NCBI GenBank assembly: GCA_030524425.1
Contig: JAUNGN010000003.1
Location: 1 to 64,000 of the forward strand
DNA from: Clostridia bacterium
Lineage (GTDB): Bacteria > Bacillota > Clostridia > Lachnospirales > CAG-274
Length of the DNA stretch: 64,000 nucleotides
Reading direction: 5' to 3'
The notes under the pieces were generated by a model, which saw only the letters and a list, made by a program, of their open reading frames with translations, did no database searches and was not told where the DNA came from. Position numbers and translations under genes: made by a program. This document shows, piece by piece, positions 1-19,483 of the stretch (position 1 is the first letter of the stretch; each line of letters starts with the position of its first letter).

Positions 1-2
1 TT

Positions 3-449
3 GAAATACATAATAAAAAGTTGGATGCTTTGGAGGATTTAATTGAGGCAGCAAATGGAAAGCCTGTACTTATAGCTTATTGGTACAAGCACGATAAGGA
101 CAGAATTATGAAACGCTTTCAGGCAGAGGAGATAAACACATCTTTCGATATTGATAAATGGAACAGAGGTGAAATGCCTGTTGCTTTAATACACCCTGCA
201 TCAGCAGGGCATGGTTTAAATTTACAGCAAGGTGGCAGTACAATCATATGGTTTGGTCTTACTTGGAGTTTGGAGTTATATCAACAGTTAAATGCAAGGC
301 TCTATAGACAAGGTCAAAGGGAAACAGTTATTATTCATCATATCATAACTAAAAATACCATTGATGAAAATGTCATAAAGGCTCTAGAGAAAAAAGACTT
401 AAGTCAGAATGCTTTGATAGAAGCAGTGAAATGGAGGTTGGAAGAATGA
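3..449 (+). CDS. Phage SNF2-family helicase, C-terminal part (truncated by window edge)
   Basis: The reading frame is open from the first bases, so the gene starts outside the window and only about 148 C-terminal residues are present. It holds the end of helicase domain 2: the motif V region reads HPASAGHGLNLQ and the motif VI region reads QLNARLYRQGQ, both typical of phage-encoded SNF2/DEAD-box ATPases of the replication module. The C-terminus is an alpha-helical tail. The stop codon overlaps the next start (ATGA), indicating translational coupling with the ArpU-like gene. The function is inferred as ATP-dependent DNA or nucleoprotein remodelling during phage replication; the exact subfamily cannot be decided without the N-terminal half. 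Confidence 0.85.
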   Translation, partial: EIHNKKLDALEDLIEAANGKPVLIAYWYKHDKDRIMKRFQAEEINTSFDIDKWNRGEMPVALIHPASAGHGLNLQQGGSTIIWFGLTWSLELYQQLNARLYRQGQRETVIIHHIITKNTIDENVIKALEKKDLSQNALIEAVKWRLEE

Positions 450-931
450 ATGCTGAAACTATGATAAAGGAATACTGGGAGTATAAAAAAGAGACTGAAA
501 TATTAAAAAACCAACTTTTAAATTTCAGAGGAGTAACCGAGGTGGATATGATTGAGGCAATGAACTTTTCCAGACCTCATGAAGAAAGGGTGCAAAAAAG
601 CGGTGTTGCAGATAAGACTGCAAAGATAGCTTTAAATTATCACAGATTTCTTTCAAAGGAAAATGAGGATTTGTATAGATTTATTTTTAACAAATACAAG
701 TGCCATGCTGAAGAAATAATGTTCTTTGAGTCTGCTGTGGATTTGCTGCCGGATAACCTGTCTTTATTCATAAAGGATATGATTTTCAATAAACTTTCTT
801 GGGATGAACTGTCCTATAAGTATGATGTAAGTCGAAGAACTATAGGAAGATACAGGAGAAAAGCCATTAACAAACTTAATGAAATATATGATTGCCGCAG
901 TCAAATAGAGATAGAATATATGCTTAGTTAG
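446..931 (+). CDS. ArpU/sigma-like phage transcriptional regulator
   Basis: This is a 161-residue protein. An upstream in-frame ATG exists at 431, but the ATG at 446 has GGAGG eight bases ahead and overlaps the helicase stop by 4 bp, so it is preferred. The last 60 residues form a helix-turn-helix resembling sigma-70 region 4 (WDELSYKYDVSRRTIGRYRR), the arrangement seen in ArpU-family regulators that switch on late phage genes. In intact prophages such a gene sits just before the HNH/terminase block, and here too it is followed by an HNH gene. Late genes for it to activate are missing from the visible element, so its current targets are unclear. Confidence 0.75.
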   Translation: MNAETMIKEYWEYKKETEILKNQLLNFRGVTEVDMIEAMNFSRPHEERVQKSGVADKTAKIALNYHRFLSKENEDLYRFIFNKYKCHAEEIMFFESAVDLLPDNLSLFIKDMIFNKLSWDELSYKYDVSRRTIGRYRRKAINKLNEIYDCRSQIEIEYMLS

Positions 932-1045
932 AAAATTGGCACTAAGGTGTCACTAATGTGCCACTGACATGGCAAATGAGATGTGGTAATATATATAATA
1001 CGGAGAATAAGAGAGAGGTTGAAAGACTTCTCTCCGCTTTGAAGT

Positions 1046-1084
1046 CCGACACAGTCTTTACTCCTTTCACTGTGTCGGTTTTTT
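1046..1084 (+). terminator. Rho-independent terminator after the ArpU-like gene
   Basis: A perfect 10-bp inverted repeat, CCGACACAGT and ACTGTGTCGG, with a 13-base loop is followed by six T residues. It separates the helicase/ArpU transcript from the HNH gene. Confidence 0.85.
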
Positions 1085-1116
1085 ATAGGGAGTCAAGTGA
1101 AAGTGCAGGTGAAAAG

Positions 1117-1476
1117 ATGCCTAAAAGACCGAACATACCTTGTAAGCATCCCGGCTGTCCTAAGTTGGTTGCTTACGGAAATAAGTATTGTGATGAGCAT
1201 AAAGCTTTACATACTGATGAAGTGCGAAGTGCTTTTACAAGAGGCTACAATAGACAATGGCAGAAAGCAAGCAAGGCTTTTCTAAATTCTCACCCACTTT
1301 GTGAGAAATGCAAAGCTAAAGGAAGATATACCAAAGCAACAGTTGTTGACCACATTATTCCTCATCGTGGCAATATGGATTTGTTCTGGGATACAGATAA
1401 TTGGCAAAGTTTGTGCAAAAGTTGTCACGATAGAAAGACAATGACAGAGGATAGATATACGGAATATAAATATTAA
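1117..1476 (+). CDS. Phage HNH endonuclease
   Basis: This 119-residue protein starts at the ATG at 1117; the frame is open further upstream, but that extension would run through the terminator hairpin at 1046-1084. An N-terminal zinc cluster (CKHPGC, later YCDEH) is followed by a basic helix (RGYNRQWQKA) and the HNH core: CEKCKAKG, then VVDHIIPHRG with the catalytic His, and CKSCHDRKT. This architecture matches HNH nucleases encoded next to terminase genes in HK97-like phages, where they assist the terminase in cutting cos DNA. Here no terminase follows; a GC-rich dyad lies directly downstream. Confidence 0.9.
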   Translation: MPKRPNIPCKHPGCPKLVAYGNKYCDEHKALHTDEVRSAFTRGYNRQWQKASKAFLNSHPLCEKCKAKGRYTKATVVDHIIPHRGNMDLFWDTDNWQSLCKSCHDRKTMTEDRYTEYKY

Positions 1477-1489
1477 AATTTATTATGGG

Positions 1490-1542
1490 GAGGGGCGGTC
1501 AAAATCTCTAAAAATGGCTTAAATGGAAACCGCAGCCCCCTC
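1490..1542 (+). other. GC-rich dyad downstream of HNH gene; possible phage cos-like site
   Basis: In otherwise AT-rich DNA there is a GC-rich inverted repeat: GAGGGGCGGT pairs with ACCG...CCCCTC across about 29 bases, with a four-base bulge. It lies just after the HNH gene and before where a small terminase gene would start in related prophages. Position and composition suggest a packaging (cos) site or a regulatory hairpin. No T-tract follows, so it is not a simple terminator. The cos role is inference. Confidence 0.4.
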
Positions 1543-1614
1543 AAACGTAAATTTTCGCAGAATTTAAGGGGTGGGATACACTAAAAGCTGAAATTTAATA
1601 TTAAAAATCTCTTG

Positions 1615-1640
1615 AAACGCTGATAAATTCGGCGTTTTTT
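1615..1640 (+). terminator. Short terminator hairpin
   Basis: AAACGC and GCGTTT form a 6-bp stem with an 11-base loop, followed by a short run of T. It ends the phage-like segment and precedes the small HTH gene. Confidence 0.55.
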
Positions 1641-1693
1641 GTTATTAAAAATCAGGTGTTTTCGCCAAAAAGTTTATAAAAAGAGGTGGTTTT

Positions 1694-1849
1694 ATGACCG
1701 AATTACAGAAAAAACAAATAATAAATATGCGTAAAAACGGTGACGGTTATAAAACTATAGCCACAGCGATTGGGATGTCAAGGAATGCAATAAGAGTCCT
1801 TTGTAAATCGAGAAATATGGCTGTTGTTTGGAGAGGTAACTGCACCTAA
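1694..1849 (+). CDS. Small helix-turn-helix protein
   Basis: A 51-residue reading frame begins with ATG behind AAGAGGTGG with good spacing. The protein reads as one helix-turn-helix: KKQIINMRKNGDGYKTIATA followed by IGMSRNAIRVLCKSRN, resembling the DNA-binding tails of Hin-type resolvases. Small HTH proteins like this are often found beside large serine recombinases in Firmicutes elements, where they may act as directionality or accessory factors. Here it is separated from the recombinases by the Wadjet operon. The C-terminus is short and may be truncated. Confidence 0.6.
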   Translation: MTELQKKQIINMRKNGDGYKTIATAIGMSRNAIRVLCKSRNMAVVWRGNCT

Positions 1850-2065
1850 TAATATTAGGGAAACTCTGATTAAATTATTCTACCATTTAAAGCTTATTTA
1901 TGATATAATACAATCAAATTATAGTTCTGTATAAATTTAATGCGAACTTATTTTTAGTAGACTACTCATATCTTCTATAACTAGTTGAGATATAAATGTT
2001 ATTAATGCAAAAAATAGGTTTTTATATAACTTGAAGTTAAAAAATCTGAAAGGTGGTGATGTAGG
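1850..2065 (+). promoter_or_regulatory. Promoter region of the Wadjet operon
   Basis: This AT-rich 216-base interval has no gene. A TATAAT hexamer lies at 1904-1909, but no good -35 box is seen at 17 bp. The ribosome site AAGGTGGTGAT at 2050-2060 serves the GTG start of jetA. No operator dyad was recognised. Confidence 0.4.
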
Positions 2066-3472
2066 GTGGCAGTATTTGATATAATTCCAAGTAACTTTTT
2101 CTCTGTTTTGGTATCAGGTAATAGAGAAATATATGTAGAAGCTTTACTGCTTTTGCACCATATGTTTAAATTTGAATTGAATATTAAGGTAGATGATTAT
2201 ATTTCATCTCTTATTTCGTTACAGGAGGACAAGGATTTTAACCCTGAAGAAGATGATGAATTGCCTGAGGGAGGATTAACTCCAAGTGGTAAAGCAAGAC
2301 TTATATTAAATAGATTTATTAAAACAGGTTGGGTCGAAAAGGAGTTCTTAGAGGGCTCATTTGTTGAAATAATTACTCCTCAGCCTTATGCTATTCCTGT
2401 TATGAAGTTGTTGGATGAACTGGGTAAAGGCGGAGTGAAGGAATATAATTCATTGGTGTTTTCCACTTATTCAGGTTTAAAGCAGGCCAAAGAAGAACAG
2501 AAATCACAAATGTACGAAGCTGTTTTGTCGGCAAAATCCAATACAGAGCAGCTTGAATATCAGCTGCGAAGTCTTTATCATGGAATAAAAAGCTATTTAA
2601 GAAATATTGAAAAAGAAAATGAAGTTAATCAGTTACTTAAAGACCATTTCGAAAATTATAAGCAAATGTCTGACAGAATTTACCACCCTATAAAGACAAT
2701 GGACTCAATTCATCGCTATATGACACCAATTCAAAACATTTTGACGGATACTTTAAGTAATGAAGAACTCATGCAGCTTATGTGTGAACGTGCAATGACT
2801 ATAAAAAGATATGAAAATGAGTTATTGGCTGAAGAAGAGATTATTTCTGCCATTAATTATGTGTTAGATGCCTATCAGTCCTTGGATGATATTATAAATC
2901 AAATTGACCGTAAGCATAGCACCTATACCAAAAGCTCAATAGAAAAAATGCGTTATATTATGACAGCAGATCAAACAATAAAGGGGAAGCTTGCTCAACT
3001 TTTGAAGGCTTATGCGAATGCAGAAAATGAACAAAAGGAAGCTATCGGTGAATTGTTTGAAAAAAATATCCGTGTAAACAGACAAGAATTTATTGATGGA
3101 AAATCTCTTTATCATAAGAATGTGCGAAGCAGGAGAATTGACGCAGAGCCTTTAAAAATCAGAAAAGATGATGGTTTTTCAGAGCTTGCTATGAATGGAA
3201 TGCTTGAGTACTTGAAAAATAGGTATTCCGTTACGAGAGTTAAGGAATTTGTAAATTCTTTATTTAAAGAAAATAAAAACAGTGTGGAAAGCAGAGATAT
3301 TTCAATTGATAGCGAAAGCAATTTTATTATGCTTATTTTGGCTGTGGTACGTGCAAATGAACGTGGTATGAATTACAAAATAGAAATGAATAACGGTCAT
3401 GTTGAATGTAATGGTTATCGCATCCCGAATATGGTTATAGAAAAGAAAGAAGGTAAAGGTCATGTGGAGTGA
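2066..3472 (+). CDS. jetA: Wadjet defence protein JetA
   Basis: This is a 468-residue protein with a GTG start supported by GGTGGTGAT upstream. The N-terminal 100 residues look like winged-helix fold, the middle (about 140-330) is a long helical, coiled-coil-rich segment, and the C-terminus (about 375-460) looks like a second winged helix. This is the layout of JetA, the kleisin-like (MukF/MksF-related) subunit that bridges the SMC-like heads. The sequence matches the JetA family formerly called DUF5716 rather than the DUF3375-type JetA of the best studied systems. It overlaps jetB by 11 bp. The identification rests on the sequence plus three matching downstream partners; the exact Wadjet subtype is not assigned. 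Confidence 0.88.
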   Translation: MAVFDIIPSNFFSVLVSGNREIYVEALLLLHHMFKFELNIKVDDYISSLISLQEDKDFNPEEDDELPEGGLTPSGKARLILNRFIKTGWVEKEFLEGSFVEIITPQPYAIPVMKLLDELGKGGVKEYNSLVFSTYSGLKQAKEEQKSQMYEAVLSAKSNTEQLEYQLRSLYHGIKSYLRNIEKENEVNQLLKDHFENYKQMSDRIYHPIKTMDSIHRYMTPIQNILTDTLSNEELMQLMCERAMTIKRYENELLAEEEIISAINYVLDAYQSLDDIINQIDRKHSTYTKSSIEKMRYIMTADQTIKGKLAQLLKAYANAENEQKEAIGELFEKNIRVNRQEFIDGKSLYHKNVRSRRIDAEPLKIRKDDGFSELAMNGMLEYLKNRYSVTRVKEFVNSLFKENKNSVESRDISIDSESNFIMLILAVVRANERGMNYKIEMNNGHVECNGYRIPNMVIEKKEGKGHVE

Positions 3473-4136
3473 AGATTTTGAAAAATTATCTGCTTATGAA
3501 AAGTGTGAGTTTCGCCGCATTGGTAACTATTTGTTATCTCATACATATATGGTACGATACATATATGATGCATCGGAACAAATGACCTTGTTAAATAGTG
3601 ATTATCAAATGGCTACTCGATTATATTCATTACTATATGATTATTTTGCAGTTACAGGATGGCAGTTGGAAAAGGACGATACTTATGGTATGATGTCACT
3701 TATTAATATATTTGATAATAATCGTCTAAGAATTGACAGATTTACTACATTATTTTTATATACCTGTCGCCTTATATATGAGGAAGAGCGAGAACATTCA
3801 AGTAGTTTTCACATAATTAGAACAGATACCCAATCAGTAGTAGAAAAAATGCGAACATTGGGACTTTTAGAAAAAGGGAAATCTACGCAGAAGGAAAGAA
3901 TTGAAGCACAGCGCACTTTAGCACACTACAACATAATTCAGAAAATGGAAAAAAGTGCGTGGAATGTAGATGGAAATCAAATATTGATTTTGCCGTCAAT
4001 TTTAATGATAGTATCTAATCAAGGAATCAATGATATGATGATTCAATTTGAAGAAATGAAAATCGAACCTACAAAAAACGAATCTACAGACGAATATGTT
4101 GAAGGAGAGGGGAATACATATGAAATTACTGAATAG
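3462..4136 (+). CDS. jetB: Wadjet defence protein JetB
   Basis: This 224-residue protein overlaps jetA by 11 bp and jetC by 17 bp. It has the size and predicted fold of DUF4194/JetB, the KITE-type (MukE/MksE-like) subunit: tandem winged helices with a hydrophobic helical core (MATRLYSLLYDYFAVTGWQL) and a segment ending KMRTLGLLEK followed by a charged linker. KITE proteins bind the kleisin (JetA) and DNA in the Wadjet SMC complex. The family is poorly conserved in sequence, so the call depends strongly on position between jetA and jetC. The last 20 residues are acidic and probably disordered. Confidence 0.85.
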   Translation: MWSEDFEKLSAYEKCEFRRIGNYLLSHTYMVRYIYDASEQMTLLNSDYQMATRLYSLLYDYFAVTGWQLEKDDTYGMMSLINIFDNNRLRIDRFTTLFLYTCRLIYEEEREHSSSFHIIRTDTQSVVEKMRTLGLLEKGKSTQKERIEAQRTLAHYNIIQKMEKSAWNVDGNQILILPSILMIVSNQGINDMMIQFEEMKIEPTKNESTDEYVEGEGNTYEITE

Positions 4137-7100
4137 GCTTTTGCTGATTAATTGGCATTATTTTACTCATGAATGTATTTCCTTTGGACAATTGAACTTT
4201 TTAACAGGCAAAAATGCTTCAGGCAAATCTACAATCATTGATGCAATGCAGGTAGTATTGTACGGAGATACAAGCGGAAGCTTTTTTAACAAAGCTGCCA
4301 ACGGTAAAGGAAACCGTACACTCTTAGGGTATCTTTGCGGTGAATTAGGAGATGCTGAGGATTTAGGCTTTAGGTATCTTCGAAATTGTCGATTTACAAG
4401 CTATATTGCCCTTGAGTTTTATGATGATATCAAGAAAAAATACTTCACAGCCGGCTGTTGTTTTGATATTTACTCAGAAAACGATATGCAAAAATTATTT
4501 TTTTCTTACGATGGTCAATTTCATGATAATGAATTTATTTCCAATGATGGTGTACCGATAAGTATTCAGGACTTGCGTATCTATTTAAAGTCACAGTATT
4601 CAGGTCACTACTATACAACAGATGTTGGAAGAGATTTCCGTACCAACCTATATGGTAAGTTAGGCGGATTACGTGACCAATTTTGTCAATTGATGAAGAA
4701 GGCTGTTTCTTTTAATCCTAATGTAGATATTCAGCAGTTTATTTCGGAATTTGTTTGCAATTCACAGCAGACTGTAGATATCAGTCAAATGCAAGAAAAT
4801 ATTCGTAGTTATAAACAATTAGAAAAAGATGCCGACATTCTTAAAGAAAAAATGGAATTGTTGGATAATATATCTAATTCATTTCAAAGTTTCACAAAAA
4901 GTGAACAGGACTTTTTGATGTACAGTTATCTTCTGGATAGGGCTGATGCTGAGATTGTATCTGATAAGCTTACAAAGGAAAAAAGGAACGCAGATGAACT
5001 TGAGAAAAGTATTAACAAGCTTAAGAGTATAATTAGTGAAGAAGAAAAGCATATTGCTGCAATGCAGAAGGAACGGGATGATTTGAATATTCAGCTTGGG
5101 AATAATGAACAGGCACAGGCAATAAAGCTGCTTGAGGATAAGATAGAAGAAAAAGAAAAGGAGCTTGATCGTTTAAACAAGGAATATTCAATGGCTGTTG
5201 TAACCTTGACAAAAAACATTTCCGACTGGAGAACAAGTATTAATCAAATGATAAACAAGTTCTCAACAGTTTCAATTGATTTAAATAATCCAGCTTTACA
5301 AAGCCGTATTGATGATATAAAAGAGGAAGCAGAACAGCTTTTACAAAAAATTGAATTAATGCAGAATTTGGATGCCAGTAATATTGAAAAAATTGGCAAA
5401 TACGGTTTTGGGGAATGTAGAGAGAGGGTTACTGCTCTTAATAAGCATTCTATTCAGATTTCTACAAGAACTGATGAGGAAATGAAAAGAGTGTTAGATG
5501 AACGGAGTGATTTGCAGGAGGAAGAAAGGACATTGGAAAATGGTATCTATCATTTTCCGAAGGATGTTGTAGATTTAAAGGAAGCTGTTATATCAAAGCT
5601 AAGACTTACTTCAAAAACAGATGTTCCTGTTGTAATAGTTGCTGAAGCTGCCGAAATCAGAGGTGAACGTTGGCGTAATGTTATTGAAGGTTACTTGCAT
5701 GCTCAAAAATATTATCTCATTGTTCCGCCAGAGTATTTTCAAACAGCCGTAAAGGTTTATGATAAAATTAAAAGGCAAAAATCAATTTATGGCACAGGTA
5801 TTGTAGATATTGAAAAAATGGCAGGCAAAAAAACTTATGCTCAAGCTGGCAGCTTAGCTGAAGAAATACAAACCGATGACACAAATGTACGATTGTTTTT
5901 GGATTATACATTGGGTCGTGTTATAAAGTGTGATAAAGCTACAGATTTAAGAAATCATCATATAGCAGTTACTGATGATGGTATGCTATACCAAAATTAT
6001 GTTGTGCGTGCAATGAATCCTGAACGTTGGGCAAAGCCTGCCATTGGACAAAATGCTATTAAAAGCAGATTGATTGCTGTAAAAAATGAAATTAAATATA
6101 GTACTTCCGTAATAACAAGCTGTGCTATTGTTAAGCAAGCATTAGATAAAATAAGTAATCTGTCTGTGTTCAGCAAATCTGAGGTTGAACATGCTGTTAG
6201 TGTGGCTCATGAGGTGAAAAAAATACCGTTAATTAAAGCTGATATTGAACAACTTAAAGTAAGTCGTGCTGCCATTGACGAAAGTGCGGTAAAGGCAATA
6301 AAAGACCATATTGTTTTGTTGGAAAATAATATTAACAGTTGCAAAAATAAAAAAGAAGACTACATTGCGAAGAAAAGTACTTGTATTGAGCAAAATCGTG
6401 TATGTAAGGATGTAAACATACCAAATTATGAACATGAATTGGCGGAAAAGGAATTAAGACTATCCGAGCGATATGAACAGACTTGGGTTGAGAAGTTTGG
6501 TTCAATTCGTTATGAACGAGAGTTGTTATCTCGTGGAAGTGCTTTAAACATAGCGGTTGCCTTTCCAAGAGAACGAAGTCGAGTTGAAAATAAGAAAAAC
6601 GAAATGTGGCATGAAGTACAGGATCTCAGAAAAGAATACAATAATACATATAAAATGGGATATGATATACATATTAAAGATAATGAATTATATGATGATA
6701 TATGGCTTGAGTTAAGTGAAAATAAGCTTCCGGAATATATGACTCGTATTCAAGATACTAAAAATAAAGCTTTTGAGCAATTTCGTGAGGATTTCTTAAG
6801 CCGGCTTGAACACAACATAGATGATGCAAGGCGACAGATAGAGGGACTTAATCAAGCCCTTAAAGGTAGTTCCTTTGGTGAAGATACTTATCGTTTTTTG
6901 ATTGTACCTAAGCCTGAATATAAGCGATATTATGATATGATTGTTGACCCTATGAAGCTTGATGGTGGATATAATTTGTATTCAGAACAGTTTAATATCA
7001 AGTATAAAGATGAGATTTCAGATTTGTTTGCTCTAATTACTAATGAAGACTCTATATCAAAATCGGGAAACAGCGAAGATTATGAAAAGCGTGTGCGTAA

Positions 7101-7521
7101 ATTTACAGATTACAGAACCTATTTGTCTTTTGATTTAGAGGTTACTGATAAGGATGGTGACACCCAAAGACTTTCTAAAACAATGGGTAAAAAGTCAGGA
7201 GGAGAAACTCAAACACCATTTTATATTGCTGTATTAGCGTCATTTGCACAGCTATATCGTGTAGGCAGAGACAGGGTCGGCAATACTACTAGATTAATAA
7301 TATTTGATGAGGCTTTTTCAAAAATGGATGGAGAACGAATTTCACGTAGTGTTGAGTTGTTAAGACAATTTAAGTTTCAGGCTATTCTTTCAGCCCCACC
7401 GGATAAAATTGCTGATATTGTTCCTTATATGGACAGTAATATATGTGTGTTGAGAAATGGAAAGAATGCGTGTGTACGTAATTTTGATTCTAACAAATTA
7501 AGGGATTTAGAATATGATTGA
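4120..7521 (+). CDS. jetC: Wadjet SMC-like ATPase JetC
   Basis: This 1,133-residue protein starts at the ATG at 4120, which has AAGGAGAGGGG ahead of it; the start overlaps jetB. The Walker A motif GKNASGKST is at residues 30-38. Two long coiled-coil arms (about 220-370 and 700-790) flank a hinge-like region, and the ATPase is completed by the signature KSGGETQTPF (about 1025-1035) and Walker B LIIFDEAFS (about 1058-1066). It is the SbcC/MukB-like motor of Wadjet. In characterised systems the JetABC complex extrudes plasmid DNA and licenses JetD to cut small closed circles. All ATPase motifs are intact, so the motor is predicted active. Confidence 0.93.
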   Translation: MKLLNRLLLINWHYFTHECISFGQLNFLTGKNASGKSTIIDAMQVVLYGDTSGSFFNKAANGKGNRTLLGYLCGELGDAEDLGFRYLRNCRFTSYIALEFYDDIKKKYFTAGCCFDIYSENDMQKLFFSYDGQFHDNEFISNDGVPISIQDLRIYLKSQYSGHYYTTDVGRDFRTNLYGKLGGLRDQFCQLMKKAVSFNPNVDIQQFISEFVCNSQQTVDISQMQENIRSYKQLEKDADILKEKMELLDNISNSFQSFTKSEQDFLMYSYLLDRADAEIVSDKLTKEKRNADELEKSINKLKSIISEEEKHIAAMQKERDDLNIQLGNNEQAQAIKLLEDKIEEKEKELDRLNKEYSMAVVTLTKNISDWRTSINQMINKFSTVSIDLNNPALQSRIDDIKEEAEQLLQKIELMQNLDASNIEKIGKYGFGECRERVTALNKHSIQISTRTDEEMKRVLDERSDLQEEERTLENGIYHFPKDVVDLKEAVISKLRLTSKTDVPVVIVAEAAEIRGERWRNVIEGYLHAQKYYLIVPPEYFQTAVKVYDKIKRQKSIYGTGIVDIEKMAGKKTYAQAGSLAEEIQTDDTNVRLFLDYTLGRVIKCDKATDLRNHHIAVTDDGMLYQNYVVRAMNPERWAKPAIGQNAIKSRLIAVKNEIKYSTSVITSCAIVKQALDKISNLSVFSKSEVEHAVSVAHEVKKIPLIKADIEQLKVSRAAIDESAVKAIKDHIVLLENNINSCKNKKEDYIAKKSTCIEQNRVCKDVNIPNYEHELAEKELRLSERYEQTWVEKFGSIRYERELLSRGSALNIAVAFPRERSRVENKKNEMWHEVQDLRKEYNNTYKMGYDIHIKDNELYDDIWLELSENKLPEYMTRIQDTKNKAFEQFREDFLSRLEHNIDDARRQIEGLNQALKGSSFGEDTYRFLIVPKPEYKRYYDMIVDPMKLDGGYNLYSEQFNIKYKDEISDLFALITNEDSISKSGNSEDYEKRVRKFTDYRTYLSFDLEVTDKDGDTQRLSKTMGKKSGGETQTPFYIAVLASFAQLYRVGRDRVGNTTRLIIFDEAFSKMDGERISRSVELLRQFKFQAILSAPPDKIADIVPYMDSNICVLRNGKNACVRNFDSNKLRDLEYD

Positions 7522-8755
7522 TAAAATAAAAAGGGATTTACTTAATATTTTGATTAATAAGTATGAGAAAAGTGCTGCTTTTTGCAGGAATGAATCTCCT
7601 AAAAGGAAAATTTCAATTAGGCTATATGATAGTGGCAAAAGCGATTATCCTTTGTATGATATTGAGCAAAGTGATAAAAGAATTGAAATTAATCAAGCCG
7701 TACTTGATTTGTGTGAACGTGAAATGCTGTTTTTTAGTTGGATGAAGGGAGAAGAAGATCATATCATAGCTAAGGTTTGGTTAAACTTTAATAATATTTA
7801 TGATGCCTATATTTATCTGAACCGTAAACCTAAGAGTGACGAGATAGATGAAATTTGTACCCATATTTTGGAGGCTATTGAATGTACTGATGCGGAATGG
7901 GCAAAGGCCTTTTTGCAGGATACATATAATTATATCTATGCTAAAAGAAAAATCGGAAATACTTTGCCAACGAGTACTGAAGAAAGGGAAGGTCTGCTTA
8001 AATGTATTTGCTTTGCCGGTAATATAAAAAACGAAGAGTTGCTGGAAAGGATATTTTCTTTACGCTGCTTTGGTGATAGTAAAAGGTTTGAACATACTTA
8101 TCGTTCGCGCATGCTAAGTGTGCTGAGAAAATATCTTGATGTGGAACAAAACACAAAAGATGAGGATTTGCTGCGACAGATAGGTATTGCAAAATACCCT
8201 GAACAATTTGAGTTTTGTGGTAGTTTAATACTAAAAACTGAACATAATGAGCTTGATTTGTCTGATTTGCGTTACGGTGGTTCGATTTTTCATGACGAGA
8301 TAGAGCAAAATAAGGTAATATTGACTAAAAATGTCGAATGTGTAATTACTATTGAAAATAAGGCAAATTATATTGACTATATCTACAAACAGAAAAATGA
8401 AAATACATTAGTTATATTCCATGGTGGTCAATATAGTCAATCTAAAAAGAAATTTTTTGAAATGATTTCTCAAAGTATTAGTCAAAAATGTATTTGGCTC
8501 CATTGGGGAGATATTGACTATGGTGGATTTACCATGTTAGCTCGGCTTCGCAGAGAAATAAATGGAAATATACAGCCATATCGAATGGGGATTGCTGAAT
8601 TGAAAGAGCATCAACAATATTGTGCTTCATTTAATGATGATTATGCAGAAAGATTAAAGCAGCTTTTATCGTATAACGAATTATCTGATTGTTACATGTG
8701 CATAAAGTATATGATTGCAAACAGAAAAAAGTTAGAGCAGGAGGCCTTGATATAG
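7514..8755 (+). CDS. jetD: Wadjet nuclease JetD (Toprim-type)
   Basis: This 413-residue protein overlaps jetC by 8 bp. The N-terminal half (1-270) is the partner-binding arm related to DUF3322; the C-terminal part is the DUF2220 Toprim nuclease related to topoisomerase VI. The catalytic glutamate lies in ITIENKANY (about residue 280) and the acidic metal-binding motif in HWGDIDYGG (about 330-337). Both are present, so the nuclease should be active. In known Wadjet systems JetD cleaves closed circular plasmid DNA once the SMC complex stalls. It is the last gene of the four-gene operon; 85 bases separate it from the next gene. Confidence 0.92.
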   Translation: MIDKIKRDLLNILINKYEKSAAFCRNESPKRKISIRLYDSGKSDYPLYDIEQSDKRIEINQAVLDLCEREMLFFSWMKGEEDHIIAKVWLNFNNIYDAYIYLNRKPKSDEIDEICTHILEAIECTDAEWAKAFLQDTYNYIYAKRKIGNTLPTSTEEREGLLKCICFAGNIKNEELLERIFSLRCFGDSKRFEHTYRSRMLSVLRKYLDVEQNTKDEDLLRQIGIAKYPEQFEFCGSLILKTEHNELDLSDLRYGGSIFHDEIEQNKVILTKNVECVITIENKANYIDYIYKQKNENTLVIFHGGQYSQSKKKFFEMISQSISQKCIWLHWGDIDYGGFTMLARLRREINGNIQPYRMGIAELKEHQQYCASFNDDYAERLKQLLSYNELSDCYMCIKYMIANRKKLEQEALI

Positions 8756-8840
8756 GTATTTTTTGATTTATATTTTTCTAGGCATAATAGGAATGGCTTT
8801 TGCATTACTATATAATATATATAGTATGAGGTGAAGCAGC

Positions 8841-9050
8841 ATGGAAAGTCATTGCAATAATATTAGCATTTTGCAAAAACTATGTGAAGAACAATGGTCA
8901 AATGAAGCTTGTTTAGGATATGTGATTTTAGCTTGCAATATATTAGGCTATTCTTCAGATGAAAAATTTAGATTAATATCAACTGTTGAAGAAACATTTG
9001 GAAATTATACTGTTCTGCAGGCTAAGAAAAAATTTTACATTGATAGTTAG
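8841..9050 (+). CDS. Small helical protein of unknown function
   Basis: This 69-residue protein begins with ATG behind GAGGTGAA. It has no signal peptide, membrane segment or cysteine cluster. The C-terminal half (GYVILACNILGYSSDEKFRL, then ETFGNYTVLQAKKKFY) is predicted helical and resembles short conserved accessory proteins found in Firmicutes prophages and integrative elements. I do not recognise a named family. It lies between jetD and the KilA-N remnant, so a role in the element is more likely than in Wadjet itself. Confidence 0.6.
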   Translation: MESHCNNISILQKLCEEQWSNEACLGYVILACNILGYSSDEKFRLISTVEETFGNYTVLQAKKKFYIDS

Positions 9051-9118
9051 ATGCTAAGAGTTTGCTATATTAAATAAAAAAGAATATGAAAAACAGAATT
9101 CTTAAAAATTAGTATATA

Positions 9119-9876
9119 GCATTAACTGATATTGAGAATATAAAAGTGATGAACCAAACGAAGCAATCAGAAACTGGATGTGAAATCGAGACACGATTTA
9201 GTTTTTGAGGTTTTAGGAGTTGTTACATAATGAAACTTCTAAACCCGTCGAATTCGACGGGTTTAGAAGTCAGGCAGGATTAAATGCTTTTACTATGTCA
9301 CCGTCAAAATGGATTGACGGAGTAAATGCAATAGGTATAGTTACTAAGTCAGGAAGATATGGTGGTACATATGCTAATTCTGATATAGCTTTTGAATTTG
9401 CATCTTGGGTTTCAGCTGAGTTTAAACTGTATATTATTAAAGATTATCAAAGAATTAAACAGGATGAAAATAGCAGGCTTTCATTAAATTGGAATTTAAA
9501 CAGAGAAATATCAAAATTGAATTATCGTATACATACGGACGCAATAAAAGAAAATTTGATACCAGATGAAGTTACATCTGTTCAAAAATCAATGACTTAC
9601 GCAAGTGAAGCTGATATGTTGAATGTAGCTTTGTTTAATAGTACAGCAAAGCAGTGGCGTGATTCAAATTCAGATAAAAAGGGTAATATTAGGGATTATA
9701 CAGATATAAATCAATTGCTTGTTTTGGCGAACATGGAAAGCTACAATGCAATATTGATTGGACAGGGAATACCTCAGGAAGAAAGAATACAGATATTGAG
9801 AACATACGCTATTAAACAGCTTAACATGTTATCCAAATTGGGTATTGAAACAATCAAATCTTTTGAACAGAAGTAG
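9119..9876 (+). pseudogene. KilA-N domain protein, N-terminus decayed
   Basis: The C-terminal 218 residues are intact from about 9220 (FEFASWVSAEFKLYIIKDYQ and NWNLNREISKLNYRIH are typical KilA-N phage antirepressor-like sequence). The missing N-terminal part is still readable upstream: ALTDIENIK at 9119-9145, then after a one-base frame change DEPNEAIRNWM, NRDTI, FLRF and ELLHNE, separated by in-frame stops at 9181 (TGA), 9199 (TAG) and 9214 (TAG). Each stop is one substitution from a sense codon. Translation might restart at the TTG at 9220, but it has no clear ribosome site and would lack half of the DNA-binding domain. KilA-N proteins are DNA-binding proteins of phages; this copy is probably inactive. 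Confidence 0.8.
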
Positions 9877-10017
9877 GATTTATTGTGCATATATAATTTA
9901 TGGCAGGATTGAAAAACAGTCTGCTTTTTTGTTACTCAAAACCGCTAAATTACTTGACTTTTAAGCCAAAAAGAGTGATATATGGTAATGACATTATATA
10001 GGAAGGAGGAGACCACA

Positions 10018-11265
10018 ATGCGAGTAAGAATAATAAATCCAAACTTACAACCTAAAAAATTAAAGGTCTGTGCCTATTGTCGAGTTTCGACCAACTCTGA
10101 TGAACAGGCATTATCTCTTGAAAATCAAACCTCTACATACGAAAGATTGATAAAGTCAAATCCTGAATATGAGTTTGCAGGTGTATATCACGATAAAGCA
10201 ATGACAGGTTCCAAGGAAAAACGACAGGGTTTTCAAAAAATGCTTTCAGATGCAAAAGCAGGTAAAATAAATTTAATAATTACAAAGTCTATATCAAGGT
10301 TTGCACGAAATACCGTCACCGTTCTCAAATACAGCCGTGAGCTGAGAGAGATTGGTGTCGGTATTTTTTTCGAGGAAGAAAAGATAAATACGCTATCTTC
10401 TGATGGAGAAGTTATGCTTTCAACTATTGCAGCCATTGCTGAAGATGAGCTTCGTAGTATGAGCGAAAATATTAAATGGTCTATACACAAGAAATTTCAG
10501 CGTGGAGAACTTATAATAAGCACTAAATATTTCCTTGGATATGACAAGAACCAATATGGGCAGCTTATTATAAACGAAAAACAGGCAGAGCTTGTAAGAA
10601 GAATATTTAATCTTTACATTGGGGGAATGAGTACAGAGAAAATTGCAGATTTACTTAATAGCGAAAAAGTTCCTACTATTAAGAATGGCAAATGGCATTC
10701 ATCCACAATAAATATAATTATAAAAAATGAAAAATATAAAGGAGATTGTATTTTACAGAAAACATATCATCCTGAAATAAATAAGCAGGCTAAAAATAAA
10801 GGAAATGTAACAAGCTGGTATATTGAGGATAACCACCCTCCCATTGTTACTAAAGAAATTTGGGAAAAGGCTAATATTTTAATGGCTGAAAGGTCAAAAA
10901 ATAGAAATCCTGCAGTATATTCAAAACGTTACCCATTATCGGGATTGCTTATTTGCCCTTACTGCGGTTCAACATTAAGGCGAAAACAGGTTCATAATAA
11001 GCGAATTGAATGGTGGTGCAGTAAAAGCATTAAGGAGGGAGTGAAATCCTGTAAAGGTATTCATGTCAGAAATGAAGATGTTGTAATGCAGAATATTACC
11101 GAGCCGACAGTTGTAGAGGAGATGATAGTTGATGGCAAGAAACATTACAGTTATACCTGCAAATCAGATTTCAATGAAAACTGCAAAAAGCCAAAACAAG
11201 AGGTTGAGAATGGCGGCTTATTGCAGGGTATCCACAGACCGAGAAGAACAATTATTAAGTTATGA
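10018..11265 (+). CDS. Large serine recombinase (first of a pair)
   Basis: This 415-residue protein uses the ATG at 10018 with GGAAGGAGGAG seven bases upstream; an earlier in-frame ATG lacks a ribosome site. The resolvase domain starts with CAYCRVST, giving the nucleophile Ser24, with further active-site arginines in KSISRFARN. It is followed by the recombinase domain and a zinc ribbon (CPYCGSTLRR ... WWCSKS ... SCKG). The C-terminal tail of about 45 residues overlaps the next gene in another frame. Large serine recombinases integrate and excise phages and integrative elements at att sites. It probably acts with the following recombinase. Confidence 0.9.
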   Translation: MRVRIINPNLQPKKLKVCAYCRVSTNSDEQALSLENQTSTYERLIKSNPEYEFAGVYHDKAMTGSKEKRQGFQKMLSDAKAGKINLIITKSISRFARNTVTVLKYSRELREIGVGIFFEEEKINTLSSDGEVMLSTIAAIAEDELRSMSENIKWSIHKKFQRGELIISTKYFLGYDKNQYGQLIINEKQAELVRRIFNLYIGGMSTEKIADLLNSEKVPTIKNGKWHSSTINIIIKNEKYKGDCILQKTYHPEINKQAKNKGNVTSWYIEDNHPPIVTKEIWEKANILMAERSKNRNPAVYSKRYPLSGLLICPYCGSTLRRKQVHNKRIEWWCSKSIKEGVKSCKGIHVRNEDVVMQNITEPTVVEEMIVDGKKHYSYTCKSDFNENCKKPKQEVENGGLLQGIHRPRRTIIKL

Positions 11266-12532
11266 AAATCAGCTCAGGTATTATAAAAACTACATTGAAA
11301 GTAATCCAAACTATGAATTTGCAGGCTTATATGCAGATGAAGGTATTACAGCCACTAACACCAAAAAGCGTGACAACTTCAACAGAATGATAGTAGATTG
11401 CAGAAATGGAAAAATTGATATGATTATAACAAAATCAATATCAAGATTTGCAAGAAATACCCTTGACTGCCTTAATTATGTAAGAGAGCTGAAATCTTTT
11501 GGTATAGGTATAATATTTGAAAAAGAGGGTGTGAATACTCTTGAGGGCAGCGGTGAGGTGTTGCTTACCATTTTAGCTTCATTGGCACAGGACGAATCAA
11601 GGTCAATATCTGAAAACTCAAAATGGGGTATTCGCAGGCGTTTTGAGGCAGGAGAACATAAAATGGCTACTAAGCGTTTTATGGGTTATGACAGGGATAA
11701 AAACGGTAAGCTGATTATAAACCAAAGACAGGCAAGGGTTGTCAAAAGGATTTATAATGAGTTTCTTTCGGGTAAAACTGTTGATTATATAAAACGAATT
11801 CTTGAAAAAGAGAAAGTTCCTAAATGGGATGGTACTTATAAATGGGAGGCATCAACAATTCAAAGTATGTTAAAAAATGAAAAGTATAAAGGTGATGCTG
11901 TTTTACAAAAGAGCTATACTGCGGATTTTCTAACAAAGAAAAGAAACAAAAATAAGGGAGAAATGCAGAGCTACTACATAGAAGATGACCACGAAGCTAT
12001 TATCAACCCCAAAATATGGGAGTGTGTTCAACTTGAAATGGAGCGCAGAAAAAAATATCTGCAGAAGTATGGCTTAAACAGTTATTCTCATAATACGGAG
12101 AATAATCCTTTTGCTTCAAAGATAATTTGTGGAAACTGCAACAGGCCTTATTCACGGAAAGGATGGTTTGGCAAAAACGGTAAAACACGCAGTATTTGGC
12201 AGTGTAGTGAGCGATATAAGGTTAAGGGTATTCAAGGCTGTACAAACAGACATACTGACGAGGAAACCTTAGTAAAGGCTTTTTTAATGGCTTGGAATAC
12301 GGTACTTGACAACAGAGAGGCTTGCCTTGAAAAATGGAACACACAAAAGAAAAGTGATAATTTGCTTGAAGCTTACAGGGCAAAACGATTTATTGAGTAT
12401 ACTGAGGACACAACCCCTGTAAATGAGTTTAAAACGGATTTTATGCTTAAAGTATTAGACCATATCAAGGTATTTGAAGATGGAATGTTAGAGGTTACAT
12501 TCCTTGATGGAACAACAATAGAGTGCCGATAA
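11132..12532 (+). CDS. Large serine recombinase (second of a pair)
   Basis: This 466-residue protein starts at the ATG at 11132 (MARNITVIPA is the usual beginning of this subgroup), with AGAGGAG upstream. The nucleophile is Ser34 in AAYCRVST; KSISRFARNT carries active-site arginine. A recombinase domain and a zinc ribbon (CGNCNRPYSR ... WQCSER ... GCTNRH) follow, then a short coiled-coil tail. It starts inside the first recombinase gene with a 134-bp overlap in a different frame. Paired or tripled serine recombinases of this type move prophages and ICE-like elements in Clostridia. Its end lies 190 bp from the end of rlmD, which supports rlmD as the attachment gene. Confidence 0.92.
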   Translation: MARNITVIPANQISMKTAKSQNKRLRMAAYCRVSTDREEQLLSYENQLRYYKNYIESNPNYEFAGLYADEGITATNTKKRDNFNRMIVDCRNGKIDMIITKSISRFARNTLDCLNYVRELKSFGIGIIFEKEGVNTLEGSGEVLLTILASLAQDESRSISENSKWGIRRRFEAGEHKMATKRFMGYDRDKNGKLIINQRQARVVKRIYNEFLSGKTVDYIKRILEKEKVPKWDGTYKWEASTIQSMLKNEKYKGDAVLQKSYTADFLTKKRNKNKGEMQSYYIEDDHEAIINPKIWECVQLEMERRKKYLQKYGLNSYSHNTENNPFASKIICGNCNRPYSRKGWFGKNGKTRSIWQCSERYKVKGIQGCTNRHTDEETLVKAFLMAWNTVLDNREACLEKWNTQKKSDNLLEAYRAKRFIEYTEDTTPVNEFKTDFMLKVLDHIKVFEDGMLEVTFLDGTTIECR

Positions 12533-12535
12533 ACT

Positions 12536-12573
12536 AAAGCCACACTCATCACTTACTCGGGTGTGGCTTTTTT
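12536..12573 (+). terminator. Terminator after the recombinase pair
   Basis: AAAGCCACAC and GTGTGGCTTT form a perfect 10-bp stem with a 15-base loop, followed by a T run. It starts four bases after the recombinase stop codon. Confidence 0.9.
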
Positions 12574-12724
12574 GTGCAATTTGTATACCGTTTGGCGAAA
12601 TTATAACCTTTTGGCAAAAAGGCATTTTCCACTATAGGGGGGTAGTAAATGTTCTCACATAGAGGTCATAATTACCTTAAAACACACAATTATATTTGGG
12701 TGAAAAGTCTTGAAAAGTGCTTAA

Positions 12725-12775
12725 TTACTGGGCTTTTCGAGTGAGCAGACAAACGGTCTCAACGTGGTAACTGTG
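12725..12775. other. Candidate right attachment site in the 3' end of rlmD
   Basis: The element ends next to the last codons of rlmD, which encode HVETVCLLTRKAQ. The 3' end of rlmD/rumA (rum) is an established integration site for ICEs in streptococci, and the conserved HVET codons form the target there. The reading frame of rlmD is intact, as expected if the element restores the C-terminus. The exact crossover dinucleotide and the matching left site cannot be seen because the left end lies outside the window. Confidence 0.45.
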
Positions 12776-14092
12776 AGGAAACATATCAACAGGCTGAACT
12801 TTTTCAATATTATATACACTGCTTTCACATAAAATCTTCAAATCTCTTGCAAGAGTGGCACTATCGCAGCTTACATATACAATCCTTTCAGGCTTCATAT
12901 TAAGCATAAGTTTTAAAAGGCTTTCATCACAGCCTTTCCTCGGAGGGTCGACTACCATAACATCAGCCTTAATTCCTCTTTCATTATACAATTCAGGAAC
13001 TATATCCTCTGACTTACCTGCAAAAAACTCTGCATTTTTTATATTATTAAGCTTTGCATTTTCTGTTGCGTTTTCTATTGCATCAGGCACAATTTCAATA
13101 CCATAGACCTTTTTGGCCTTTTGAGCAAGAAAAAGGGATATTGAGCCTATTCCGCAGTAAGCATCAATAACAGTTTCATTTCCTTTAAGGTCAGCAAATT
13201 CAAGTGCTTTTGAATAGAGCTTATAGGTTTGTATAGGGTTGACCTGAAAAAAGGAAAGAGAGGATATTTTAAATGCTAAATCACCTATTTTATCTGTTAT
13301 ATAATCCTGTCCCCATATGGTTTCGCATTTTTGTCCCATAATTACATTTGATTTGACAGTGTTATAATTAATAACGACAGATTTTAAATTTTCAATTCCT
13401 TCAAGTGCCTTTAACAGCTCCTTTTTGTATTTAAACTTATTGCTGTTTACAATAAGGCAGACCATTATTTCGCCTGTATAAAAGCCTTCTCTTATGAGAA
13501 TATGACGTACAAGCCCTTTGCCTGTTTCTTCATTATAAGCAGATATATTGTTGCTTTCCATAAAAGCCTTTATAGTTTGCAAAATTTTACTGTTTTCTTT
13601 ACTTCCTATAAGGCAGTTGTCATTATTAACTATTTTGTGACTTCCCAGAGAATAAAAGCCCATATTAATGCCGTTTTTATCTGAATTAACAGGATACTGA
13701 GCCTTGTTTCTGTAGTGATATGGCTCATCCATACCTATAACAGGCTCAACTTCAATATTATTAAAACCGCCAATTCGCATTATGTTCTGCTTTACCTTGT
13801 TTTGCTTTAGTTTAAGCTGTTCTGAATATTCTAAATGCTGAATTGTACAGCCTCCGCATTTTCCTGCAAAAGAACAGGGAGGGGTTATTCTGTAAGGCGA
13901 GGGAGTAATAATTTCAAGTGCCTTGCCGTAGCCATAGCTTTTGTTTGCTTTTACAACAAGGACTTTAACTTCCTCTCCCGGCAAGGTGTTTTTGACAAAA
14001 AGGGTATAGCCCTCAATTTTGCCTATGCCTTCTCCCTGTGTGCCTAAATCTGTAATTTTTATATTGTAAATTTCATTTTTCTTAATATTCAT
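12725..14092 (-). CDS. rlmD: 23S rRNA (uracil-5-)-methyltransferase RlmD
   Basis: This 455-residue enzyme uses S-adenosylmethionine to methylate a uracil of 23S rRNA (U1939-type). A TRAM domain occupies about residues 3-62. Cysteines 73, 79, 82 and 160 match the [4Fe-4S] ligands of RumA/RlmD, and the methyltransferase domain includes DAYCGIGSISL, VVDPPRKGCD and the catalytic cysteine in YVSCDSATL. A TrmA/RlmCD paralogue with different uracil preference cannot be fully excluded. It lies 2 bp after yhaM and is probably cotranscribed with it. Its 3' end adjoins the mobile element, so the last residues may be element-derived. Confidence 0.88.
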   Translation of the reverse strand: MNIKKNEIYNIKITDLGTQGEGIGKIEGYTLFVKNTLPGEEVKVLVVKANKSYGYGKALEIITPSPYRITPPCSFAGKCGGCTIQHLEYSEQLKLKQNKVKQNIMRIGGFNNIEVEPVIGMDEPYHYRNKAQYPVNSDKNGINMGFYSLGSHKIVNNDNCLIGSKENSKILQTIKAFMESNNISAYNEETGKGLVRHILIREGFYTGEIMVCLIVNSNKFKYKKELLKALEGIENLKSVVINYNTVKSNVIMGQKCETIWGQDYITDKIGDLAFKISSLSFFQVNPIQTYKLYSKALEFADLKGNETVIDAYCGIGSISLFLAQKAKKVYGIEIVPDAIENATENAKLNNIKNAEFFAGKSEDIVPELYNERGIKADVMVVDPPRKGCDESLLKLMLNMKPERIVYVSCDSATLARDLKILCESSVYNIEKVQPVDMFPHSYHVETVCLLTRKAQ

Positions 14093-14094
14093 AA

Positions 14095-15039
14095 TTAAAA
14101 TTCTGTCTTTCTGATATTTCTTGCAAGTATTTTATTATAGCCTGCCCATGGACCGTTTGTGGAATTTTCGGCAATGGCAGTTTCAAACATTTTAACCTTA
14201 GCATCGGTATCATCAGCACAGTGAAGTATAAATGCTTCTATTGTGCGTGGAAGTTTTGGTGAGCCATATTCATATTCTCCGTGATGTGCTAAAATGTTAT
14301 GCTGAAGCATAGAGCGGAGCTGATGAGGAAAACCCTCAATCTTATCAGCTTCTCTGCCTATAAATTCAGAGCCCATTACAATATGTCCTAAAAGCTCACC
14401 GTCATCGGTATAGTCAATATTAGGGAATTCCGAAAGTTCTTTAAGCTTTGCGATGTCATGCAAAAGAGCTGAGGCTATAAGAATATCTCTGTTGACATTT
14501 TCATAGTGCTTTGCAAAAAAGTCACATATTCCTGTCACAGATATTGTGTGTTCAATAAGTCCTCCCATATAATTATGGTGCATAGCTTTAGCGGCTGTAT
14601 GCTTTTTAAAGCTTGAAGAAATATCCGTATTTTCAATAAATACATTTGTTAAAAGTGTTTTAATATATGGATTTTCAACAGAGCTTATGTATTCAGTAAG
14701 TTTTTGATAAAGCTCATTTACATTTTTTTCTGTTGCCGGAATGTAGTCGGACTCATTATATTCTCCGTCCTGAGCTTTTCTTATTTTCTTTATATTTAGC
14801 TGTAAATCGTTATTAAAAGTTTGAACAGTTGCATCTATTTTAATATAATCTCCTTCGTTAAAGGATTGTATATCTCTTGAAATATCCCATACTTTGCCGT
14901 TTATTGTACCGGTTTTATCTGAAAGGGTAAGAGAAAGATAATTTTTACCTGTTTTTTGTGATTTCATACTTTGTCTTTGCTTGCAGAAATAGAAATCAAT
15001 AATTCTTTCTCCGTCAGTTAGTTCCTTAATATAACGCAT
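14095..15039 (-). CDS. yhaM: 3'-5' exoribonuclease YhaM
   Basis: This 314-residue protein has the YhaM layout: an N-terminal OB fold (YLSLTLSDKTGTINGKVWD) that binds nucleic acid, then an HD-type hydrolase domain with metal ligands in HHNYMGGLIEHT and ALLHDIAKLKEL. YhaM trims RNA 3' ends, and single-stranded DNA in vitro, in Gram-positive bacteria. The length is the usual one for the family. The start is supported by AGGAGG a few bases upstream on the minus strand. It is the first gene of a yhaM-rlmD transcript. A perfect 16-bp palindrome sits just upstream. Confidence 0.9.
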   Translation of the reverse strand: MRYIKELTDGERIIDFYFCKQRQSMKSQKTGKNYLSLTLSDKTGTINGKVWDISRDIQSFNEGDYIKIDATVQTFNNDLQLNIKKIRKAQDGEYNESDYIPATEKNVNELYQKLTEYISSVENPYIKTLLTNVFIENTDISSSFKKHTAAKAMHHNYMGGLIEHTISVTGICDFFAKHYENVNRDILIASALLHDIAKLKELSEFPNIDYTDDGELLGHIVMGSEFIGREADKIEGFPHQLRSMLQHNILAHHGEYEYGSPKLPRTIEAFILHCADDTDAKVKMFETAIAENSTNGPWAGYNKILARNIRKTEF

Positions 15040-18004: not shown

Positions 18005-19483
18005 ATGAAGAAGTATATCAGGATAACAGCTTTAGTATTGTGTGCGGCAATGCTTGCAGGCTGTGGAGGAAAAAAGGGCGATATGTCTATGATGGATGAA
18101 GAGGCTAAGGCAACAAGTGTTGAAATAGCAAACCCTACACTTAATACCGTAAAGGATGAATATATGTACTCAGGTACAATACAGGCAGCGGAAACCGTTG
18201 ATGTATCTGCAAAAGTATCAGGTACGGTTGAAGCTACATATTATGAAGTTGGCGACACAGTTACTAAGGGCGCAGTTCTTTACAGGATAGATGATACAGA
18301 TTATCAGAATAGCTTAAAAAGTGCACAGGCATCATTAACATCTGCAAATGCAGGTGTTCAGTCTGCAAAGACAGGTGTTGATACAGCTAACGGTGCTGCA
18401 ATGAAGACACAGCTTGAAAGTGCTAAAAATTCTATTACATCAGCAGAAACAAATCTTGAAAACAGTAAGAAATCTTTAGAGGATTCAGAAATTTCCATTA
18501 CAAATGCTCAGACAAATTATGATAAGGCAAAGAGTGATTATGATATAAATAAGCAGCTTTATGAAGTAGGCGGTGTTTCAGAGGATGCTCTTGATACATA
18601 CAGAATTTCTTATGAGCAGGCAGAAAACGCCTTAACAACAGCTCAGAATTCAAAAACTAAGGCAGAGCTTGCAGTAAAGAATGCTGAGGATAACCTTGCA
18701 CAGGCAAAAACTACTTATGATATTCTTTCAAAGGAAACCACGGCTGAAAATGCGAGAAAGGCTAAGGATAGCCTTAATTCAGCACAGGCTTCACAGAAGT
18801 CAGCATCTGTTGCTGTTGACAATGCAAAGCAGCAGATTGCATACTGTACCGTAACAAGCCCTATAAGCGGTACTGTTCTTTCAAAGAATGTTACTGCAGG
18901 TGCTATGGCAAGCGGTGTGGGTTATCAGATTGTAGATTTAACATCTGTTAATGTAGAGGTTAATGCATCTGAGCAGATTGCTGCAAGTGTTAAAGTCGGT
19001 GATGCTGTTACAATAAACATACCGACTATGTCAACTGACGGAGCATTTACCGGTTCAATTACTGAAATTCCGCCGGGAGCAAATGATGACGGTACATATA
19101 CTATAAAGATTAACATTCCTAATACAACAGGCGAATTAAAGGCAGGTATGTTTGCAGAGGTTTATTTTGCAAAATCTACAAGTGACAATGCTGTAATTGT
19201 TCCGAGAGATGCCGTAATGGATAACAACGGTGAGGAATATTATGTATATGTTGCTGACGGAAATACAGCTAAGAAGGTTGAAGTAACTGTAGGTATTGAT
19301 ACAGGAGATACTATTGAGGTAACATCAGGAATCACTATTAATGACAAGGTTGTTGTTAAGGGTCAGACTTATCTTGCTGACGGTGACGAGCTTAATATAG
19401 TATCAGATAATGGTGTTGATGTTGAGCCTGTTACCGAAGCAACAACAGCTCCTGCTGACGGCAAGGAGGCTAAGAAGAAATGA
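18005..19483 (+). CDS. RND efflux periplasmic-adaptor-type lipoprotein (HlyD/AcrA family)
   Basis: This 492-residue protein has a lipoprotein signal (lipobox LAGC, Cys20). A biotinyl-lipoyl half-motif (VDVSAKVSGTVEATYYEVGD, about 63-82) is followed by a long alpha-helical hairpin (about 100-275), the second lipoyl half (CTVTSPISGTVLSKNV), and beta-barrel and membrane-proximal domains to about 470. This is the membrane-fusion adaptor of tripartite exporters. It overlaps the pump gene by 4 bp and is followed by a TolC-family gene. The C-terminal tail is Thr/Ala-rich. In a cell with one membrane the adaptor would sit on the outer face of that membrane. Confidence 0.9.
   Translation: MKKYIRITALVLCAAMLAGCGGKKGDMSMMDEEAKATSVEIANPTLNTVKDEYMYSGTIQAAETVDVSAKVSGTVEATYYEVGDTVTKGAVLYRIDDTDYQNSLKSAQASLTSANAGVQSAKTGVDTANGAAMKTQLESAKNSITSAETNLENSKKSLEDSEISITNAQTNYDKAKSDYDINKQLYEVGGVSEDALDTYRISYEQAENALTTAQNSKTKAELAVKNAEDNLAQAKTTYDILSKETTAENARKAKDSLNSAQASQKSASVAVDNAKQQIAYCTVTSPISGTVLSKNVTAGAMASGVGYQIVDLTSVNVEVNASEQIAASVKVGDAVTINIPTMSTDGAFTGSITEIPPGANDDGTYTIKINIPNTTGELKAGMFAEVYFAKSTSDNAVIVPRDAVMDNNGEEYYVYVADGNTAKKVEVTVGIDTGDTIEVTSGITINDKVVVKGQTYLADGDELNIVSDNGVDVEPVTEATTAPADGKEAKKK

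Follow-up and report, generated by a model that had tools for sequence, protein, structure and literature searches.

In the Wadjet systems described so far, JetA, JetB and JetC assemble into an SMC dimer-of-dimers, which loads onto DNA and works as a loop extruder (PMC10586767). On closed circles below about 50–100 kb extrusion completes, the motors meet, and JetD is freed from auto-inhibition and cuts; small plasmids are removed, and linear DNA and the chromosome escape cutting (PMC10586767). For the solved branch, an N-terminal IFDR motif of JetB that contacts JetD has also been described (PMC10586767). The solved Wadjets of E. coli GF4-3 and P. aeruginosa PA14, together with MksBEFG of Corynebacterium glutamicum, have the same four functional parts as the locus analyzed here, which lies in a 64,000-nt stretch of Clostridia bacterium DNA (the window) that starts at base 1 of contig C22. 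For the carrier of the locus, rather than the locus itself, a described parallel is found among streptococcal ICEs, where serine-integrase elements insert into rumA (PMC4701971).

Four plus-strand open reading frames within positions 2066–8755 of the window encode jetA, jetB, jetC and jetD in sequence, each overlapping the next (Table 1), by 11 nt at jetA/jetB, 17 nt at jetB/jetC and 8 nt at jetC/jetD. PADLOC Wadjet models cover all four proteins over nearly their full length (JetA1, E = 4e-172; JetB1, 2e-74; JetC1, E = 0; JetD1, 3e-117). The Pfam matches are likewise all above cut-off, namely PF18982 for JetA (392 bits, the cut-off being 26 bits), PF13835 (DUF4194) for JetB, PF13558 (SbcC_Walker_B) for JetC and PF09983 (JetD_C) for JetD. 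Because four profile matches occur in the gene order of the family, and because the A–B–C–D order is kept in 28 of the 40 DUF5716 loci fetched from the host's order (by custom HMMs), the agreement is far beyond chance. The Walker A, signature and Walker B motifs of JetC are intact and conserved among homologues, as are both Toprim motifs of JetD, whose catalytic acidic residues are invariant across five homologues. The original prediction of a complete operon of four overlapping genes, with an intact ATPase in JetC and the Toprim acidic residues in JetD, is thereby borne out. Read in this way, the locus is a complete Wadjet of the PADLOC type I branch with a DUF5716 kleisin, a known kind of system, which it matches in gene order, protein families, motifs and profile scores along the full length and from which it differs in nothing basic. 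What sets it apart from a typical member is a 69-aa gene after jetD, present in three related loci, and its prophage-remnant carrier; as a defence system the locus is unremarkable, and what is unusual is confined to its genetic surroundings. The reading adopted here, a complete type I Wadjet operon with a DUF5716 kleisin that forms the cargo of a defective, prophage-derived element, is assigned a probability of roughly 90%.

Table 1. Features of the Wadjet-carrying element and its surroundings (window coordinates unless another locus is named)
Feature	Position	Strand	Remarks
Phage DNA helicase, C-terminal part, cut by contig end	21–449	+	PHROG 62, E = 2e-57; 86% DNA identity to C23 helicase
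Phage transcriptional regulator	431–931	+	PHROG 36, E = 2e-16; same position in C23 sister prophage
Phage HNH endonuclease	958–1476	+	PF01844; PHROG 144
Truncated phage gene, 51 aa	1694–1849	+	PHROG 2308, first 44 of 138 positions; C23 sister copy 146 aa
jetA, kleisin subunit, 468 aa	2066–3472	+	GTG start; PF18982/DUF5716; PADLOC JetA1 571 bits; Pfam JetA 392 bits
jetB, KITE/MukE-like subunit, DUF4194, 224 aa	3462–4136	+	PADLOC JetB1 248 bits; PF13835
jetC, SMC/MukB-like ATPase, 1133 aa from corrected start	4120–7521	+	PADLOC JetC1 1186 bits; start via relative G009; motifs located
JetC Walker A, GKNASGKST	4207–4233		Intact
JetC signature, KKSGGETQTP	7189–7218		Intact
JetC Walker B, RLIIFDEAF	7291–7317		Intact
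jetD, Toprim nuclease, 413 aa	7514–8755	+	PADLOC JetD1 390 bits; PF09983; AlphaFold model best match 7til
JetD Toprim motif TIEN	8348–8365		Intact
JetD Toprim motif GDIDYGG	8507–8527		Intact
69-aa gene	8841–9050	+	85 nt after jetD stop; homologues directly after jetD in G009 and L007
69-aa gene homologue, locus L008	15763–15960	-	Three Wadjet loci including the window
69-aa gene homologue, locus L007	14659–14853	+	Three Wadjet loci including the window
KilA-N-domain regulator pseudogene	9132–9876	+	Three stop codons in N-terminal part; open frame 9220–9876; PF04383
Large serine recombinase 1	9982–11265	+	Intact; catalytic-serine motif CRVST; PHROG 95 integrase
Large serine recombinase 2	11129–12532	+	Overlaps recombinase 1 by 137 nt, as in C32 sister pair; PHROG 95
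Right attachment arm of element	12533–12766	+	Ends at core ACGGTCTCAACGTG (12753–12766)
rlmCD/rumA-like rRNA uracil methyltransferase, integration target	12725–14092	-	PF05958 and TRAM domain; C-termini compared with uninterrupted relatives
RND efflux operon	18005–23839	+	Adaptor, permease, outer-membrane efflux protein homologue (PF02321); MarR-like regulator upstream

The start of jetC required correction. Counted from its first ATG at 4096, the gene would overlap jetB by 41 nt; the relative G009, however, has a stop codon immediately 5′ of the homologous MKLITKLLLINWHYF, which places the start at 4120, downstream of a ribosome-binding site, GGAGAGGGG. A stop reported inside the G009 JetC is this same codon and lies just 5′ of the true start, outside the gene. 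Ribosome-binding sites are present at the starts of the Wadjet genes, the 6.7 kb of four overlapping frames contain no stop, and the overlapping starts suggest translational coupling. Together with the conserved catalytic residues, these features argue against a decayed, silent Wadjet that keeps its frames intact and is not expressed. Such decay would fit the state of two neighbours, the KilA-N pseudogene and the truncated PHROG 2308 gene, as well as a promoter scan upstream of jetA that yielded no candidate above chance level, and it is considered unlikely; the window Wadjet is probably functional.

The branch represented here is distant from the solved complexes, since in a phmmer search of the PDB the window JetC aligns to solved JetC over the head end only (E about 3e-8 to 2e-6). 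The same search returned no match for the window JetA, JetB or JetD. Likeness to the solved Wadjets thus resides in JetC head homology and in the fold of JetD, whereas the IFDR motif is absent from the window JetB. An AlphaFold model of JetD, built from three homologues and of moderate confidence (pLDDT 69), has P. aeruginosa JetD (7til, E = 8e-7) as its best Foldseek match, followed by topoisomerase VI A, and its ten significant PDB matches comprise JetD and topoisomerase VI A subunits only. As modelled, JetD has the expected CAP-Toprim, topoisomerase VI A-like fold. A JetA model from three sequences was too poor for use (pLDDT 42) and was set aside. As one clean member of the DUF5716 branch, with no close solved structure found by sequence, the window Wadjet would be a reasonable source for structural work. 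The original prediction that its JetA belongs to DUF5716 (PF18982) and not to DUF3375 (PF11855) stands. All matching PADLOC JetA1 models carry the DUF5716 label, both for the window JetA and for the JetA of four plasmid-borne systems, and by these labels DUF5716 is a regular branch of Wadjet, neither an oddity nor an exception. The DUF3375 branch occurs in C. glutamicum (MksBEFG), the control in which PF11855 finds one match; the window JetA falls outside PF11855, which has no match across the whole genome, and PF18982 has none in any of 14 control genomes.

Within the host's order, a PF18982 kleisin scores above cut-off in 50 of 392 genomes. Six of the 40 fetched loci, from six genomes (L060–L065), encode a DUF5716-family JetABC but have no JetD within reach. 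They share the DUF5716 kleisin, the DUF4194 protein and the SMC ATPase with the window, which alone adds JetD, and by gene content they are MksBEF-like. Since these loci do without JetD, membership of this kleisin family is not enough to make a system a plasmid defence, and PF18982 by itself is no proof of Wadjet; a single-gene search would miscall all six, and in the window it is JetD that supplies the proof. The same six loci are what commends the view that the window JetABC is an MksBEF-like chromosome-organizing complex accompanied by an inactive or unrelated JetD. This view is nevertheless very improbable: the window does have a jetD, which overlaps jetC, and its product reaches 390 bits, retains both TIEN and GDIDxGG, and resembles JetD and topoisomerase VI A in its fold. 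The closest homologue of the complete window operon was found in G009, of another genus of the same family (74% protein identity for JetA, 81% for JetB, 67% for JetC and 66% for JetD), followed by loci L006 and L007 with 39–67% depending on the subunit. The operon is missing from all six same-genus genomes searched, and either horizontal acquisition or wide loss therefore has to be invoked. By homology to the studied Wadjets, the window JetABC would load on DNA and extrude loops; on a circle below about 50–100 kb two motors would meet and JetD would be released and cut, such that small plasmids would be lost and the chromosome spared. The presence of Wadjet would accordingly predict host resistance to small plasmids, a matter of consequence for engineering the host.

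The operon is flanked on both sides by phage-type DNA, in an element whose left end is off the contig. Upstream, positions 1–1761 match in blocks, at 85–86% DNA identity, the early region of a sister prophage on contig C23 of the same genome, where the helicase cut in the window is complete (437 aa); similarity ends at 1761. Downstream, positions 9946–12058 are 77.5% identical in DNA to a recombinase pair on contig C32. Further along C23 come tail and tail-sheath genes, and the recombinases of C32 are preceded by genes for baseplate, holin and endolysin. None of these late genes is found in the window, and between 1850 and 9982 there is no packaging, capsid or tail gene, only jetABCD, the 69-aa gene and the KilA-N pseudogene. 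Since the related phages keep late genes at this position, the Wadjet stands where late genes would be; gene order suggests that the ancestral prophage lost its late region, in whose place Wadjet and the small gene downstream would now be found. A single prophage may be split between C23 and C32, whose ends have about 26 nt in common but do not overlap cleanly. Set beside a complete tailed prophage, the window has integrases and a right attachment arm, with no left attachment site seen, and lacks a late-gene module between the replication and integration modules. Structural genes could lie further left, beyond the contig end; an assembly-overlap search for the missing left half of the element found none. 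The KilA-N pseudogene has a 95.5% identical DNA counterpart on contig C3, where the fragment begins the contig (L059). It matches the PADLOC PDC-S22 profile from position 62 only, and automated calling would report it as an intact defence gene. Companionship of Wadjet and recombinase is local and not a rule, since a large serine recombinase lies near a DUF5716 Wadjet in one of the 40 order-level loci (L089) versus two of 20 control stretches.

The right end of the element can be placed exactly, at 12766, inside the 3′ end of the rlmCD/rumA-like gene, for which the element supplies the last codons; the core ACGGTCTCAACGTG falls in the codons for HVET of the methyltransferase. Four further copies of the attachment arm are present in the genome (two on C33, one each on C18 and C32). 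All five end at the same base, and in the arms on C33 and C32, too, there is coding sequence for a replacement rlmCD C-terminus that starts at HVETV. What six relatives have in common with the window is limited to rlmCD and the region upstream of it; they have none of the element and continue into unrelated DNA after rlmCD. A search for direct and inverted repeats within 1–14200 revealed no second attachment site. Beyond the core, C33 and C18 have 400 nt in common (89%), which, the contigs being unordered, looks like the left end of related elements in tandem. The arrangement resembles the streptococcal rumA ICEs in that the insertion lies towards the 3′ end of a rumA-like methyltransferase gene and gives its product a new C-terminus (PMC4701971). 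Unlike those elements, the one in the window has two overlapping recombinases rather than one, is prophage-derived, and has no conjugation genes that could be seen. It is also reminiscent of SCC, which likewise has neighbouring large serine recombinases and variable cargo and inserts at the end of an rRNA methyltransferase gene, but the target is rlmCD/rumA-like instead of rlmH and the backbone is that of a phage. With the NCBIfam Ccr recombinase models the scores reach 138 and 114 bits, where the cut-off is 900, which places the pair outside SCC by this measure.

That the operon sits in a mobile element, and so can spread, was part of the original prediction; the prophage-derived location is supported, the capacity to spread is not. 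No packaging, structural or conjugation genes were found in the 12.8 kb of element within the window, one phage gene is truncated, the KilA-N gene is a pseudogene and the left end is off the contig, and mobility is therefore unproven. One might still picture a self-mobile, satellite-like or integrative element, moved by its own recombinases and bearing Wadjet as a weapon of competition, given the intact recombinase pair, the precise right attachment end and the related elements at several attachment copies in the genome. Besides the missing gene classes and left end, however, the published size rule weighs against it, since the element, once excised as a circle of less than about 100 kb, would be among the substrates of Wadjet (PMC10586767); such autonomy seems improbable. 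The setting raises a question of its own, namely the fate of a system that destroys small circular DNA when the element encoding it would, on excision, form just such a small circle.

Copies of the recombinases or attachment arms elsewhere in the genome also adjoin defence-type genes. Those on C32 (L052) lie beside Lamassu-like PDC-M22 and HEPN genes, those on C33 (L054/L121) beside AbiJ-like and SIR2-like genes, and others beside an ATPase-Toprim gene (C3, L059), an RnlA-like toxin gene (C53, L053) and an LA2681 HEPN gene (C18, L128); on C33, a 9-kb stretch of defence genes is enclosed by two attachment cores of opposite orientation. These neighbours may point to a family of defence-carrying elements in this genome. 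Conceivably, though doubtfully, rlmCD-targeting prophages with paired serine recombinases are carriers of exchangeable defence modules in the lineage, of which one has Wadjet and a conserved small fifth gene in place of its late genes, and the attachment ends adjoining Lamassu-like, AbiJ-like, SIR2-like and HEPN genes form an SCC-like, attachment-bounded defence array.

The small gene itself, which has no Pfam or PHROG match, has homologues directly 3′ of jetD in G009 (64% identity) and L007 (42%), and follows jetD in none of the other order-level loci. A Wadjet-specific role was entertained at first, but a wider profile search recovered distant homologues in about 18 genomes; at the loci inspected, their neighbours include a large serine recombinase and a sigma-like gene and no adjoining Wadjet. 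A role as a mobile-element accessory is therefore at least as likely as a Wadjet-specific one, and the gene may either accompany this Wadjet as an accessory to recombination or be a fifth component.

A JetC search of viral contigs produced no relative. The only record filed as phage that covers most of a Wadjet JetC, MT835591.1 (Bacteriophage sp., L027), does hold a Wadjet operon; by ORF reading its neighbours are tRNA-synthetase-like, MATE, carbon-starvation-type and pantothenate-kinase-like genes, and it was rejected as a phage-borne Wadjet, reading instead as a piece of bacterial chromosome. A 352-kb conjugative plasmid of Vibrio nigripulchritudo (L132) carries a Wadjet whose jetC is split by an IS3-family transposase gene. 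Further along the window, beyond the integration target, lies an RND efflux operon that includes a PF02321 homologue; should the host be a single-membrane bacterium of the Clostridia type, such an operon would not be expected.
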